From a virus: a DNA stretch of 33,284 nt. This document shows positions 19,936-31,359 of the stretch, piece by piece. The stretch lies in the IMG/VR virus record IMGVR_UViG_3300046655_000362, positions 1-33,284 of that record. The stretch is one strand, 5' to 3'. The position numbers and the translations under genes are program-made. The notes under the pieces are model-generated. The model was not told the origin of the DNA and did no database searches. It was given only the letters and a program-made list of their open reading frames with translations. Position 1 is the stretch's first letter; each line of letters begins with the position of its first letter.

Positions 19936-21336
19936 TTAGCTTAAGTCTTCTATTACCCAATAATATCCTGCATCACTATTATTATCAATCATAGTTTCTT
20001 GATTAGGACTTGACACCGCAGTCCCGGCTACACTAGTTATCCCTGCAAATACCATTTTGTAACTTGTCCAATTAGAAGCATTACCTCCATATGGACTTGA
20101 TGGTACGCTACTTAAATCATCGGGTGTGGTGTAAATAAATGTTCCTGTAATTGACCTATATTGTGCTAACAAAACGTCAGAAGGACTATAAAAAGATATT
20201 CTTACGTTTCCTAAGTTAAACGTAGAACCCGCACTCGTAGTTTGTCCCGCTATTACAGCTCCTAGCTGATTCATTAAAGCTAGTGCGTTTGTTTTACTTG
20301 TAACAGGATCATTAGCATAAACACTAAAAGCATATGTGCTAGTTCCGGTATTTATTATAGGTTCTAACTCTACATAGGTACCAGATGATGGCGTTTGTTG
20401 GTCAAAATAGAATATAGGTAATTGTGTATCAGTTGTAGTACAAGCAATTGTTTGCCCCGCATTAGAATACCCACTTGGTACGGTTATATTGACCGTAAGT
20501 GTGCGTGTTGTTTCAGTTGTTACAGTTGCAAAACTTCCAGGACTCATACTGTCAATCGTACCAATATCTACTGCTACTGAAGATGAATTATATCTACCAC
20601 TTGCATAAAGATCAAATCCTGAAATAGTAACCTCGCTACAATCAAGAACATTATAAGGCGGCTGTGTTGCTGTAGTAGTACAAGCTAACGTACTGCCTGT
20701 GTTGAAATATCCTGCTGGAACCGTAATATCTAGGTTCAATGTTCTTACAGTATTAGTAGATACGGTAGCGTAAGAAGCTGGGCTGCTTGATGAAATGGTT
20801 CCTATGTCTAAAGTAGGCAATGTTATTGCTCCATTTTCATCTACAGCAAATCCACTTATCGTTATATCTGAGCACGCTAAAGTGGGAGTCAACGGCTGTG
20901 TGGCCGTTGTAGTACAATTGATAACACTACCAGTATTTGAATATCCACTAGGAACCTCAATAGATACAGTCAGCGTTCTTAAGGTGTCTGAACTCACCAA
21001 GGCAAACGATGCCGGTGCGGTAGTCGTTATAGTTCCTATATCTGTAGTGGGAATAGTTACTGTTCCGTTTTGTGCTACAGCAAAACCACTAAGGGTTATA
21101 TCGCTGCAAGTTAGGGCAGAAAGACCATCTCCGCTTTGACTATCAACATCCGTAGATCCATCAACAAAAGTGTATGAGCTAGAACCCTGTCCTTCTAAAG
21201 ATCCTATTCCCTGGTTTATTAGTTCACCATCACAGCACTCTCTAGAGTAAGTCTCTTCGTCAGCGCAGAGGCAACCCCTTCGGCTGTCTTGTGGCGAAGC
21301 TATTCTGTTGTTATACCTAGATCTACTATATCTCAT
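19936..21336 (-). CDS. Virion protein with three Cys-bounded 78-residue repeats
   Basis: The 466-residue protein starts with an Arg-rich segment and a Cys cluster, GCLCADEETYSRECCDG (21-37), followed by QGIGSLEG; from memory this head is widespread in Bacteroidota phages. Then come three tandem repeats bounded by Cys77-Cys141, Cys155-Cys219 and Cys233-Cys299, each with a CSDIT/VTISGFAV-type start, DIGTI, PASFA, RTLTV-x-I-x-VPSGY and a CTTT end. The period is exactly 78 residues. They look like Ig-like adhesion domains, with a possible disulphide. A related single module occurs in the protein at 28601-29164. The last 160 residues have another fold. Confidence 0.75.
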   Translation of the reverse strand: MRYSRSRYNNRIASPQDSRRGCLCADEETYSRECCDGELINQGIGSLEGQGSSSYTFVDGSTDVDSQSGDGLSALTCSDITLSGFAVAQNGTVTIPTTDIGTITTTAPASFALVSSDTLRTLTVSIEVPSGYSNTGSVINCTTTATQPLTPTLACSDITISGFAVDENGAITLPTLDIGTISSSSPASYATVSTNTVRTLNLDITVPAGYFNTGSTLACTTTATQPPYNVLDCSEVTISGFDLYASGRYNSSSVAVDIGTIDSMSPGSFATVTTETTRTLTVNITVPSGYSNAGQTIACTTTDTQLPIFYFDQQTPSSGTYVELEPIINTGTSTYAFSVYANDPVTSKTNALALMNQLGAVIAGQTTSAGSTFNLGNVRISFYSPSDVLLAQYRSITGTFIYTTPDDLSSVPSSPYGGNASNWTSYKMVFAGITSVAGTAVSSPNQETMIDNNSDAGYYWVIEDLS

Positions 21337-23498: not shown

Positions 23499-25061
23499 TT
23501 ATCCTAAAGTAGCAGACTGAATTATTTTGTTATCTAGGTCTTGCTGATTTGACACTTCACTTCCTACGACATAAGCTTTAAGAGGTTGATTTCTTCCTTG
23601 TGCAATAGCCCGTCCTATTTGGTCTACGCCCGAGGCTCCTACTACGTTGAATACTGGGGCTTGAGATGATCCAGACCCTCCAGCTGCACTTAATGTACCT
23701 GCCCCCCTTGATCCTGGGACTTTGACGGACAGTATATTCTTGACGTTAGCTAACCCTTGCACAACCGCAGCCGCTGCTAAAGCAAATCTAGCTACAGTAG
23801 GTAATGTTTTGTCGGTTAATGCTGCGTTTGCCCCAACGTAAGCGTCCATTGTAGCTGTTGCAATAGCAAAAGCCTTGCCCGCTGCACTTTGTTCGCCTAA
23901 AAAGTTCGCCATACTATTAGTAAATTCAGCAACAGCGGATATTTCCGCTAAGTAGTTCTTTTTCTTGTTTTCGGTTACTTTGTTATCAGACTCAATAAGT
24001 TCTGCATTTAAGTCTGTCTTGAACATTACAAGATCCGCAAACCCTTGAGCCTCTATTTCATTCGCCGTTTGTTGCCTCTCCCTATCCAACATACCAAAGG
24101 CTTCATTAGCGGAATTGGTTTTTTCTAAAAACGACAATAAAGAACTCGCTCTTTTGTTATTGGCGTCCTCCTCTTCTTTAAAAGAATCTCTTACTCCTTT
24201 TATCCTTTTTTGCCTTCTTTCTTCAGCCTCCTCGTCGCTTCTCCTGACGGCCTCTCCTCTGTTGTTAATGAATAATATAAAATCATCCGCTAAAGACTTT
24301 TCCGCTTCAGCAAGAGCGTCCTGCTTTCTTAAAGATATATCTAACGCCTCTACTTCTAGTTTGTCTAGCTCAGTTCTGATCGCTTGAGCCTTTGCTAATT
24401 TCCTTAGTGTTTTTATTTTATCCTCTATTGCATCTCTAGAGGCCTTCGTTAATTTGCCATTCTCATCTACCTCAGGATTTAAATCTTTATACCTTTTGGT
24501 TATTGCAAAAAGTGTTCGTTGTAATTCATCTCCGCTTAAGTTACCCCTATCAATCAATCTGACAAAAACATTTAAATCAGCCGCAGTCTTTACAAAAGAA
24601 TCCTCTAACGCATCTACAGACTTTTTAAGCTTCTTGCCATTCATTGCGCTTTTCTCTAGTCTCGCTATGAAAACATTGAATAAAACAATAAGTCCTAACG
24701 GTCCCATAAAGGCTTTTCCTAAAAACTTTAAGCCGTTAACCAGGCCTCCAGTGGTACCAATAAGGGTAATAAATAATGTTGACAATTGGCTAATGTTGTT
24801 AGCCATTGCGGTAAATCCATAGTTAGAGTCAGATATAGTTCTACTAAGTTCAACAAGGGTTGCTCCAGCAAGACCAGTCTTGTCGATCATATTATTTGCA
24901 GACTTACCTGTTTTATTCATCTCAGTGGCTTGCCTCTTTAAATCAACATTGACTTTATTAATAGCATTGTCTAAACTTACAAAGTCTTTGGTTAGTCCTT
25001 GTACTTTAACCTTCCCTGCATCATTTATCTCAAAGGTAAAAGTTATTCTATTGTCGGCCAT
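23499..25061 (-). CDS. Tape measure protein
   Basis: The 520-residue protein has a helical, coiled-coil-like N-terminus, a hydrophobic stretch LSTLFITLIGTTGGLVNGL and FMGPLGLIVLFNVF (about 92-133) that could insert in a membrane, long charged helices (about 200-350), then an Ala-rich segment and a Gly/Ser-rich end. This is the normal profile of a tape measure, which sets tail length and helps DNA cross the inner membrane. Using about 1.5 angstrom per residue the tail would be near 78 nm. It follows the tail tip gene and a 49-residue ORF. Confidence 0.85.
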   Translation of the reverse strand: MADNRITFTFEINDAGKVKVQGLTKDFVSLDNAINKVNVDLKRQATEMNKTGKSANNMIDKTGLAGATLVELSRTISDSNYGFTAMANNISQLSTLFITLIGTTGGLVNGLKFLGKAFMGPLGLIVLFNVFIARLEKSAMNGKKLKKSVDALEDSFVKTAADLNVFVRLIDRGNLSGDELQRTLFAITKRYKDLNPEVDENGKLTKASRDAIEDKIKTLRKLAKAQAIRTELDKLEVEALDISLRKQDALAEAEKSLADDFILFINNRGEAVRRSDEEAEERRQKRIKGVRDSFKEEEDANNKRASSLLSFLEKTNSANEAFGMLDRERQQTANEIEAQGFADLVMFKTDLNAELIESDNKVTENKKKNYLAEISAVAEFTNSMANFLGEQSAAGKAFAIATATMDAYVGANAALTDKTLPTVARFALAAAAVVQGLANVKNILSVKVPGSRGAGTLSAAGGSGSSQAPVFNVVGASGVDQIGRAIAQGRNQPLKAYVVGSEVSNQQDLDNKIIQSATLG

Positions 25062-28313: not shown

Positions 28314-28601
28314 TTAAGTCGTTATTGTGGATTCTAATTGAACCCATTTTATATAGTCTTTGTTGTTGTTTAATGGTGTGTCTACGTTCTTTTGCAAATA
28401 AGACCTGATTATATCTGAAAGCTCTAGTATAACATAATCGTTACCTGGCAGAGGTTTTTCCTTTAGTGTCGTTATAGCCGTTCCTTTGTCGGTGTTTTTA
28501 GTTCCTGAGTATATATAGATTTCTACTTCAACCTCAGTCATACCCGATTGACTGAACTTTACAAAAAATGGACTCCTAGTATTTATTTTAGTCTCAGGCA
28601 T
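28314..28601 (-). CDS. Short MPETKIN paralogue, 95 aa
   Basis: The 95-residue protein matches the first 95 residues of its neighbour at 28601-29164: both begin MPETKIN and share RSPF, IYIYSGTK, DKGTA, GNDYV/NNDYV, IIR-x-Y and TPLNNNKDYIKWV. The two genes are adjacent and overlap by one base (ATGA-type junction), so this looks like a tandem duplication with loss or gain of the C-terminal module. It is a probable beta-rich virion component. Confidence 0.7.
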   Translation of the reverse strand: MPETKINTRSPFFVKFSQSGMTEVEVEIYIYSGTKNTDKGTAITTLKEKPLPGNDYVILELSDIIRSYLQKNVDTPLNNNKDYIKWVQLESTITT

Positions 28602-29164
28602 TATGATGAGGGTTGATCAGCGGTTAATACGCATATTTTTTGCTCGCTTTGGTGTCCGCTAAATCCAGAAGGAACGTTAATGTACACATTAACCGTTCTA
28701 GTTATTGGGCTGCCAGTAGTATTAGCATTCCAACTAGGAGGCAATGTTTCAGATCCGGCGTAGTCAGGATTAACATATTCTCTTTTTGCTATATCTATAA
28801 CAGATGAAGTTGGGGCCGTAATCGTTCCATCTTGAGCAACAGCAAATCCACTAACATCCGAGCAATCGGGAACATATTCTTTGTCTATTATTTCTTCTAT
28901 TTCCACCCACTTTATATAATCTTTATTGTTGTTTAGTGGTGTGGTTGAAGTGGGTGTTATGTAGTCTCTTATTATTTCTGAATAATCTACCAAAACGTAA
29001 TCATTATTGCCTACAGGAAATTTCCTTAATTTGTACTTTGCGGTTCCTTTATCCGATGTCTTTGTGCCCGAATATATATATACCGCTATCTTCACGCTTA
29101 TCAGATTAGCGTGCTGATATTTCTTTACAAAGGGACTCCTTACGTTTATCTTAGTTTCAGGCAT
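28601..29164 (-). CDS. MPETKIN paralogue with Cys-bounded adhesion module, 187 aa
   Basis: The 187-residue protein has an N-terminal domain (1-95) homologous to the 95-residue protein next to it, and a C-terminal module from Cys101 to Cys178 with SGFAVAQDGTITAPT, RTVNVYINVPSGF and CVLTADQP. This module is plainly related to the three 78-residue repeats in the protein at 19936-21336. The recombined domains indicate exchange of adhesion modules between two structural genes. It lies in the tail region and overlaps the gene upstream by 8 bases. Confidence 0.7.
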   Translation of the reverse strand: MPETKINVRSPFVKKYQHANLISVKIAVYIYSGTKTSDKGTAKYKLRKFPVGNNDYVLVDYSEIIRDYITPTSTTPLNNNKDYIKWVEIEEIIDKEYVPDCSDVSGFAVAQDGTITAPTSSVIDIAKREYVNPDYAGSETLPPSWNANTTGSPITRTVNVYINVPSGFSGHQSEQKICVLTADQPSS

Positions 29165-29657
29165 TTTTAGTAGACTTCTTTAGGTGTTGTTCAACGTCTT
29201 TTATATAAGCCTCTGCGGTTTCGCTAAGCAATTTACCACCAATTCTTCCCATTGCTTTTCCAAATATATTGCTGCCCTTGAAACCGTTTTTCCCTATAAA
29301 AAATGCTATTGTACCAGCAGATTTTTTTATAGAACCATATTTCGGGGGTATGCCCTTTTTGTTCATCCAGTCTTCAATAACACTTACCTCAGGAGGTTTA
29401 GCGCCAGGCCTTCTGCCTGTGTGCAAAAACTTAAGCCCATATCCTCCAGCCACCTCAATACCAATATTGCCTTTTCTGTCAAAAGTTTTTGTTTTTATAC
29501 TTTGGGCGGTTCTACCACTAGCATTCCTATTGGGATACGTTGAAGAGTATCCGGAATCATTAGCCATTTGATCCTTCATAGCCTTTTCTATGATAGGACC
29601 ATACTTATCCATTACAACCTTAAGATTGTTCTTATTCACAGATATCGAAATTATCAT
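29157..29657 (-). CDS. HK97 gp10-like tail completion protein
   Basis: The 166-residue basic protein resembles HK97 gp10-type proteins: ASGRTAQSIKTKTFDRKGNIGIEV (about 46-69), FLHTGRRPGAKPPEVSVIEDWMNKKGI (about 77-103) and a later Gly-rich basic segment followed by a helical tail. Such proteins join tail to neck. I start at ATG 29657 (MIISISVNK); ATG 29669 is also in frame. It overlaps the neighbouring gene by 26 bases. Confidence 0.7.
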   Translation of the reverse strand: MIISISVNKNNLKVVMDKYGPIIEKAMKDQMANDSGYSSTYPNRNASGRTAQSIKTKTFDRKGNIGIEVAGGYGLKFLHTGRRPGAKPPEVSVIEDWMNKKGIPPKYGSIKKSAGTIAFFIGKNGFKGSNIFGKAMGRIGGKLLSETAEAYIKDVEQHLKKSTKNA

Positions 29658-30099
29658 TAGGCATCTCAATAGAGAAAGTAACTCCCCATCCGGCTAATTG
29701 GTTCTCAAAACGGTCTTGGAACGGTTCTGCCGTAACATCTCCGACTATCTTAAGGTCGTTGTCCTCGAACAGATTTCCGCGTCTTAAATGGCTCTGTAGG
29801 TCGTTTACGACAGATAGCTGAGTGTTTAATACGTCCTGTAGATTATCATTCTTGTAAAACGAATCAAATGTACTTTCATTCTTATTTACGTCCACAACAT
29901 CCATAGACAATACACTAACGTCTGCCGTCATTATATAGTCACCAAACACTACATTTCCGATTGTAAGGTGGCTTAGTGGGTAGATTGTAGTTTTGGTAAG
30001 GTCCACCTCCAATATGTCACCGAAGGTGACTGTATTGGTTATATTGTTGGCCCTTAACCTATCTTTGATTTTGTCTAGTAAGTCGTAGATTTCTTTCAT
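29632..30099 (-). CDS. Neck / tail terminator-like protein, 155 aa
   Basis: The 155-residue protein begins MKEIYDLLDKIKDRLRANN and has beta strands such as TIYPLSHLTIGNVVFGDYI and a C-terminal QDRFENQLAGWGVTFSIEMP. An N-terminal helix, a four-stranded sheet and a closing strand that reads as a conserved GW-x-V-T-F-x-IE pattern suit a tail terminator. Its ATG overlaps the stop of the chaperone's alternative frame in an ATGA junction. Function is inferred from order and shape. Confidence 0.6.
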   Translation of the reverse strand: MKEIYDLLDKIKDRLRANNITNTVTFGDILEVDLTKTTIYPLSHLTIGNVVFGDYIMTADVSVLSMDVVDVNKNESTFDSFYKNDNLQDVLNTQLSVVNDLQSHLRRGNLFEDNDLKIVGDVTAEPFQDRFENQLAGWGVTFSIEMPNDNFDICE

Positions 30100-30354
30100 T
30101 TTATTCTTTGTATTCTTTTAGCTTCTAAGTCGTTTTTCTCTCGTTCGAACTCGAGCCAGGTGAGAGCTTGTCGAACCGGGAGTTTGGTAACTGCTTCAAA
30201 GCGTAATAAGTCTCCTTTAGCGATCGCATATATAGATTGATACCATCCCCATTTTCTTCCAAAATTTGCTTCAGCTTGGAGTCCCCCTTCGCCTGATTCT
30301 GTAAATAACCCATCAAATAGAGAGACAGTTCTTTCCCTAAACGATAAAAAAAAA
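30096..30354 (-). CDS. Alternative-frame extension of the chaperone (-1 frame)
   Basis: From the T9 run (30354-30346) the -1 frame stays open for about 83 codons and ends in TGA overlapping the next ATG. Its last part reads FGRKWGWYQSIYAIAKGD, then RFEAVTKLPVRQALTWLEFE and a charged end EKNDLEAKRIQRIK, a pattern I know from C-termini of tail assembly chaperones in related phages. A -1 shift at the T run would give a 255-residue product in place of 245. The exact slip point is inferred; only the region below about 30265 is clearly coding-like. Confidence 0.65.
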
Positions 30355-30862
30355 CCAACGCGCCCAATGCTATATCTATTGGCATATCTTTTAATGCCTC
30401 TGAGTATTTCTCTGAAGACTCATAGTCTTCTATTAAATACATATTCTTTCTTTCGAAGGTAACTGGCCGATACAACACAGCCATTGCCTTATGCATATTC
30501 TCCCAGTCACTCATATAATTGTCTAAGTCAACAAATTCACCTAAAGATATACTGTCGAGCTTCGGTATGAAACCGAACTCGACTTCATCACCATTTGGAT
30601 CAGATAATTTAAAGCGGTTTATAAAGGGTGTCTTTGCTTTAAACATCTCATTGAGGTGGTTTATTACAAAGCTGAAATCGTTAAGTTTCATACTGTAGGC
30701 TTCCTTGAGAGTCAGCCCACAGAATATCTCCAGCATCTTAAGGTTTAAGAACTCAGGATCTTCCGCGTCTTTGTTTTCGTCAGCGAGTTTTAAGAACCGC
30801 TGATACTCATTTAACTTTATTGCTCGTAAAGACTTGGGGATGTCTATTTGTATCTTCTTCAT
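30125..30862 (-). CDS. Probable tail assembly chaperone, frame-0 product
   Basis: The 245-residue frame-0 product begins MKKIQIDIPKSLRAIKLNEY and is helical, with LNLKMLEIFCGLTLKEAYSM (about 37-56), MHKAMAVLYRPV (about 122-133) and PIDIALGALVFFYRLGKEL (about 158-176). I start at ATG 30862; upstream codons look non-coding. A second frame opens over its 3' third, as in chaperone pairs made by frameshifting (lambda G/GT type). It is the first gene of the structural block and lies just before the neck and tail genes. No enzyme motif is seen. Confidence 0.7.
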   Translation of the reverse strand: MKKIQIDIPKSLRAIKLNEYQRFLKLADENKDAEDPEFLNLKMLEIFCGLTLKEAYSMKLNDFSFVINHLNEMFKAKTPFINRFKLSDPNGDEVEFGFIPKLDSISLGEFVDLDNYMSDWENMHKAMAVLYRPVTFERKNMYLIEDYESSEKYSEALKDMPIDIALGALVFFYRLGKELSLYLMGYLQNQAKGDSKLKQILEENGDGINLYMRSLKETYYALKQLPNSRFDKLSPGSSSNERKTT

Positions 30863-30882
30863 ACTATTATAACTAAAAAAAA

Positions 30883-30899: not shown

Positions 30900-31097
30900 A
30901 TGAAAATACAACAGTTACAAAAAAAAATGGTTATATTAGTAGTAGAAGAATTGGGGAGCATAGCGACCCAGTTCTATTCCAACTTAGTTACCAATTCTTA
31001 TTCAGATTGCGGAGCATATAAAGGGGTGGAAGGTGTGTCTTGGGCAGACCTAGCCCTAAGAAACGCATTTCTTTCCGCTAAAGCCGAAATGCTTTGA
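30900..31097 (+). CDS. Possible lone plus-strand gene, 65 aa
   Basis: A 65-codon ORF on the opposite strand to all other genes. From codon 10 or so it reads like protein: MVILVVEELGSIATQFYS, then DCGAYKGVEGVSWADLALRN and FLSAKAEML, with good helix amphipathy. After the stop a short pairing of AAAGC with GCTTT and a T run could serve as a weak terminator. It faces away from the structural block and could encode a small regulator. ATG 30929 is an alternative start. No family is recognised and the strand is unusual. Confidence 0.35.
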   Translation: MKIQQLQKKMVILVVEELGSIATQFYSNLVTNSYSDCGAYKGVEGVSWADLALRNAFLSAKAEML

Positions 31098-31327: not shown

Positions 31328-31359
31328 AAAAAAAAAGCCTCACTAATTAGCAAGGCTTT
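31328..31359 (-). terminator. Intrinsic terminator ending the early block
   Basis: On the minus strand AAAGCCT (31359-31353) pairs with AGGCTTT (31340-31334), with a 12-base loop that contains the palindrome CTAATTAG, followed by a T run (31336-31328). It lies 22 bases past the stop of the 83-residue gene. Confidence 0.85.

Follow-up and report, generated by a model that had tools for sequence, protein, structure and literature searches.

The window, that is, the whole stretch of DNA analysed here, is a single virus record of 33,284 bases (IMGVR_UViG_3300046655_000362) whose hosts are probably bacteria of the Bacteroidetes. Its minus strand carries a gene resembling the G/GT genes of long-tailed phages, with a run of nine T well inside its coding sequence past which a second reading frame, in the -1 register, is also open. 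The features concerned are the following:

30125..30862, minus strand: frame-0 open reading frame of 245 aa, G-like product (reading frames; 67 relatives by tblastn; AlphaFold2)
30346..30354, minus strand: putative T9 slip site, GTT TTT TTT T, including the heptamer T_TTT_TTT (153 distinct contexts compared)
30096..30347, minus strand: -1 segment past the slip, 83 codons and TGA, candidate alternative C-terminal, T-like domain (reading frame; conserved codons)
30125..30347, minus strand: dual-coded overlap of frame-0 tail and -1 domain, about 74 codons (codon-position rates; open-frame test)
29632..30099, minus strand: following gene, coding for 155 aa (PHROG 30964, function unknown), with an ATGA overlap at the -1 stop
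23499..25061, minus strand: 520-aa tape measure candidate, the C-terminus of which resembles P12024L gp50 and PHROG 32985

Frame 0 runs over 245 codons from the ATG at 30862 to a TAG at 30127-30125; the list of open reading frames also offers an upstream ATG at 30961, and the alignment of relatives begins at 30862. Across the T run (30354-30346) the frame-0 codons read GTT TTT TTT TAT. The open stretch of the -1 frame begins at 30419, directly past a TGA at 30422-30420, and continues to a TGA at 30098-30096 which, together with the ATG of the next gene at 30099, makes up the ATGA overlap. Residues 1-172 are common to both products; they are followed in frame 0 by a tail of 73 residues, and in the predicted frameshift product by 83 residues (172 + 83 = 255 aa) of the pattern FFLxFRxR...FGxKWGWYQSIYALAxGD...LxFEKEKNELE. 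The original prediction had placed a T9 run, two frames of 245 and 255 residues and an ATGA junction at this locus, and the coordinates of the run, the frame borders, the junction and both lengths were all reproduced. Three further runs of eight or nine T on the minus strand (30875-30882, 30919-30927 and 31328-31336) lie just upstream of the ATG at 30862, in what is apparently a non-coding leader. In 143 of the 153 contexts compared, the +1 frame meets a stop codon no more than two codons from the run (30337-30339 in the window); this stop may be forced by the frame-0 Leu codon and the -1 Phe-Arg codons, or may serve to end +1 slippage products quickly.

The searches for relatives did not demand a T run as a condition. 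Queried with the frame-0 protein, tblastn returned 67 relatives from viral contigs, all with T9 in the same register except for two with T10, and the -1 frame of these relatives extends beyond the frame-0 stop wherever the contig is long enough. When the -1 domain served as the query in a search of its own, viral contigs gave at least 600 pattern matches; the best 80 were examined, and 80/80 have T9 or T10 without change of register. Two more searches starting from distant members led to the same T run and register, with no other slippery heptamer and no moved register found, and a scan of genome contigs added four metagenome-assembled genomes of Bacteroidetes, including Winogradskyella and Flavobacterium, all with T9. 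Altogether, a script recorded the run, as T9 or T10 and with its register unchanged, in 219 of 222 sources, and inspection found the run in each of the remaining three, namely Nonlabens phage P12024S (L070) and two contigs that end early and have T9 (L192 and L213). Clustering of the shared proteins gave 84 groups at 90% identity and 45 groups at 60%. The 153 distinct 90-nt contexts comprise 145 T9 and eight T10, never seven or eight T, and all 153 contain the heptamer T_TTT_TTT, of the X_XXY_YYZ type, in the correct register. The Phe codons of the run are TTT in 306/306 instances and never TTC, to be compared with 69% TTT and 31% TTC for Phe codons upstream; the first codon of the run ends in T in every context, against 35-43% of upstream Val, Ile and CTN Leu codons, and the codon following the two Phe codons invariably begins with T.

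Homopolymers are error-prone under some sequencing chemistries, and a true sequence with one more T would turn the locus into a single fused reading frame, the doubt that had been raised with the original prediction. Yet the same run is found in an independent identical contig (L002), in a relative of 91% identity (L003), and in all other viral contigs, four metagenome-assembled genomes and two isolate genomes. Since no relative is a fused open reading frame, and none with an extra T joining the two frames was found, a miscounted T is excluded; the eight T10 cases, moreover, retain the frame offset. We consider sequencing or assembly error, or gene decay, extremely improbable.

The position of the shift is well delimited. 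The -1 frame of three relatives (L128, L129 and L139) opens only just before the run, so that the shift does not lie upstream of it; the conserved -1 codons (FFLxFRxR) start directly past the run; and in complete loci the -1 frame passes the frame-0 stop and terminates at the next gene. Could the -1 domain instead be a gene in its own right, with a separate start codon and reached by translational coupling without slippage? It is annotated in this manner in the Nonlabens phages P12024L (gp40 and gp41) and P12024S, as two separate hypothetical proteins. The -1 frame of the window, however, has no ATG past the run, the conservation of the codons immediately following the run is at odds with a separate start, and such a start would leave the invariant T run unexplained. 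This arrangement is thus very unlikely, and P12024L gp41 (L069, 4309-4476; counterpart in L070, 2809-2976), a frameshift domain listed in GenBank as a hypothetical gene of its own, is probably the end of a fusion with gp40.

Because the run is kept in every relative found, the slip looks built into the biology of the virus, and the run together with both open frames is retained across relatives in the way expected of the conserved frameshift architecture of G/GT genes. On this comparative evidence we put at roughly 85% the probability that programmed recoding at the invariant T9 yields two proteins from this gene, the slip event being deduced from conservation. The bulk of expression would yield the frame-0 protein, with its 172 shared residues and 73-residue tail, while a minority would slip one base back on the run into the -1 frame and acquire an 83-residue helical domain in place of the tail.

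Whether both C-termini are of consequence was addressed with codon-position substitution rates from 56 independent sister pairs. The rates at positions 1, 2 and 3 are 0.126, 0.078 and 0.334 upstream, where only frame 0 is coding, and 0.104, 0.064 and 0.260 past the frame-0 stop, where only the -1 frame is. In the overlap they flatten to 0.141, 0.096 and 0.193. The -1 wobble position coincides with frame-0 position 2, and its rate in the overlap is lower than that downstream (0.193 versus 0.260; p=0.0013) and lower than that of the frame-0 wobble upstream (0.334; p=4e-10). Followed along the gene, the -1 wobble rate rises from 0.168 to 0.396 at the end of frame 0, and in codons 16-23 the order of the rates follows frame 0. 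In an open-frame test, the -1 protein was recoded with random synonymous codons and the open length of frame 0 counted: openings of 4-21 codons are expected on average, and 33-88 were observed in 41 lineages (P 0.000-0.058), which share kinship so that these P values are not independent. From these comparisons, both frames of the overlap are under selection in the main group. The -1 coding sequence that the original prediction had found convincing is borne out by its conserved codons past the run and by the rates in the 56 pairs, and the conservation of a single frame, which had been held out as an argument against the prediction, is contradicted by the flattened rates and the improbably long open tail.

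The competing view is that only the -1 frame matters past the run, the frame-0 tail being a chance opening in the shadow of the -1 domain and the system a plain lambda-type one. The length of the tail, which ranges from 16 to 88 codons, would fit this view, as would the Nonlabens-type phages: the tail of the two Nonlabens phages is 25 codons, no longer than chance (P about 0.29), and that of a third contig of this type is 16 codons. The frame-0 motifs NGDGI and SLKE, which had been considered as proof of selection on frame 0, were dropped for this purpose in favour of the codon-position rates, as they stand opposite the conserved -1 motifs KWGWY and AKGD. The low -1 wobble rate within the overlap and its rise at the frame-0 stop, the frame-0 order of rates in codons 16-23 and the improbability of the open stretch in most of the 41 lineages nevertheless make a chance tail unlikely. 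Given that both overlap frames are selected and that the frame-0 tail is open far beyond chance, the slip in the main group would swap one selected C-terminus for another. The swap of C-termini proposed originally thus appears to hold in nearly all relatives and fails to extend to the Nonlabens lineage, with its frame-0 tail of 16-25 codons; this lineage is nearer the lambda pattern, and not every lineage has a selected frame-0 tail.

The same two isoforms could be generated by either of two machines. A ribosomal slip would involve the tandem slippage of Phe-tRNA on U_UUU_UUU; in transcriptional slippage, RNA polymerase would add one U (or drop two) on the T9 run, and the shifted mRNAs would then be read normally, the slipping machine alone distinguishing this account from the ribosomal one. 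We slightly prefer the ribosome, because the frameshift is ribosomal in the tail chaperones characterised so far (PMC5009743, PMC6316719) and because hydrophobic residues (Val/Leu/Ile/Phe in frame 0, Leu/Phe in -1) can account for the outermost T's and the heptamer for the inner seven. For the same reason, that the first and ninth T never vary was considered and rejected as proof of polymerase slippage, since hydrophobic residues in both frames would keep them. The tolerance of T10 (8/153) is also a poorer fit to a length-sensitive mechanism. Polymerase slippage is still a serious rival, if the less probable of the two, because no signal other than a homopolymer of nine is conserved, TTC is never seen, and nine is the length at which many bacteria avoid such runs (PMC1088944). 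In all 153 contexts the run has a length typical of transcriptional slippage sites (about nine A or T, or longer), and TTC is absent here, whereas SPP1 uses UUUUUUC; a purely ribosomal site would not require such uniformity, with neither TTC nor any other heptamer present, and this counts against the ribosomal account. Elsewhere in these phages such runs are depleted: 265 non-redundant other open reading frames (175 kb) hold no T run of nine or more, where synonymous shuffles predict 2.7 (P=0.03), and five A runs of this length against 17 expected. No RNA structure was detected at the site, upstream or downstream (mean folding z -0.21 to 0.10 in five windows over 117 loci), nor any enrichment of SD-like elements around it; thus neither a downstream structure nor an upstream SD-like stimulator, both frequent but not obligatory at -1 ribosomal sites, was found, which again suits the polymerase. 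It is improbable that the two kinds of slippage are both at work. The most far-reaching reading, in which a large, uncharacterised family of Bacteroidetes phages would produce chaperone isoforms by RNA-polymerase slippage at a universal T9, swapping selected C-termini over some 60 dual-coded codons, is one we regard as doubtful; the literature searched, with few subscription papers covered, yielded no phage tail chaperone reported to depend on transcriptional slippage.

The frame-0 protein was modelled well by AlphaFold2, with a mean pLDDT of 82, and the slip residues F171-F172 lie within a long helix (162-193) of that model, which the isoforms would continue differently, with YRLGKELSLYLM in frame 0 and LSFRERTVSLFD in -1. 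The -1 domain is predicted to be all-helical at low confidence (pLDDT 66). The tail chaperone label of the original prediction is plausible and found no confirmation in family or fold searches: Pfam, PHROGs and NCBIfam revealed no similarity to a named tail chaperone, and a fold search of the PDB no confident match. Fold matches among viral proteins were mostly to unnamed proteins, and one weak match was to a protein named tail assembly chaperone (rank 44, E 0.8). Flavobacterium phage 6H was another weak fold match. A G/GT-like role in tail assembly, deduced from the architecture, is probable by analogy. The shared part would then coat the tape measure protein, with the tail tube subunit recruited by the -1 domain. 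Literature searches that covered few subscription papers found no report of this gene family, and our data point to a phage gene family, as yet without a name, in which a recoding site is widely conserved.

The genomic setting is that of virion genes. The G/GT-like gene is the first in a block of such genes and adjoins that of the conserved 155-aa protein, which is also located 3' of the G/GT-like gene in relatives; a terminase gene is close by in several of them. The 520-aa protein could, from its sequence, be the tape measure protein. Its gene is not directly downstream of the chaperone-like gene, several genes intervening here as in P12024L; adjacency of the two is not universal among tail chaperone gene orders. 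Within the same region, the adjacent genes at 28314-28601 and 28601-29164 have similar starts (MPETKINTRSPF and MPETKINVRSPF), cross-match in L071 and are a tandem duplication. By eye, a 466-aa protein (19936-21336) contains three copies of a repeat of the form SGFAVAQNGTVTIPT...VPSGYSN...CTTTATQP, and the 187-aa protein encoded at 28601-29164 ends in one diverged copy. A DNA cytosine methyltransferase-like gene, recognised by eye, adjoins the large terminase gene (1680-2654 and 494-1705).

The locus would represent a sharply defined recoding site, devoid of detectable accessory signals, in a broad and mostly uncultured group of phages, and as such lends the choice between ribosome and RNA polymerase to a direct test. 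Automatic annotation splits or misses the -1 domain, which is present in at least 600 stretches of viral contigs and belongs to no named family. 

Several known systems invite comparison. The homologous gene of Nonlabens phages P12024L and P12024S (JQ823123 and JQ823122; gp40 and gp41) has T9 in the same register, a homologous -1 domain (36% identity) and a following gene of the same family, and differs in its frame-0 tail of just 25 codons and its annotation as two hypothetical genes. With the bacterial genes subject to transcriptional slippage on nine A or nine T, e.g. Thermus dnaX and Shigella mxiE (PMC1088944, PMC5009743), the locus shares alternative frames and the lack of any conserved signal besides a homopolymer of nine A or T, slippage at the present site being putative. 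Like lambda gpG/gpGT (PMC5009743), it consists of one gene in a virion block with two putative -1 isoforms and a -1 domain set on a shared N-terminal part. In lambda the shift takes place on G_GGA_AAG, close to where G ends, and GT is G with a domain added (PMC5009743), whereas the shift proposed here would replace the last 73 residues of the frame-0 product, so that the textbook addition of a domain gives way to two alternative C-termini encoded over the same DNA, both apparently selected. The closest architectural precedent is SPP1 gp17.5/gp17.5* (173 and 297 aa, 112 of them shared, with a putative -1 shift at UUUUUUC; PMC6316719), which likewise has a T-rich heptamer well inside the gene, two alternative C-termini and about 61 codons in dual frame (PMC6316719), and with which no sequence similarity was found. 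The SPP1 -1 product is far longer than its frame-0 counterpart and gene 17.5 directly precedes the tape measure gene, unlike the present gene, whose site is always T9 or T10 and never contains TTC. Compared with SPP1 17.5/17.5*, the present family stands out by its invariant T9 and the near-equal size of the two products, 245 and 255 aa.
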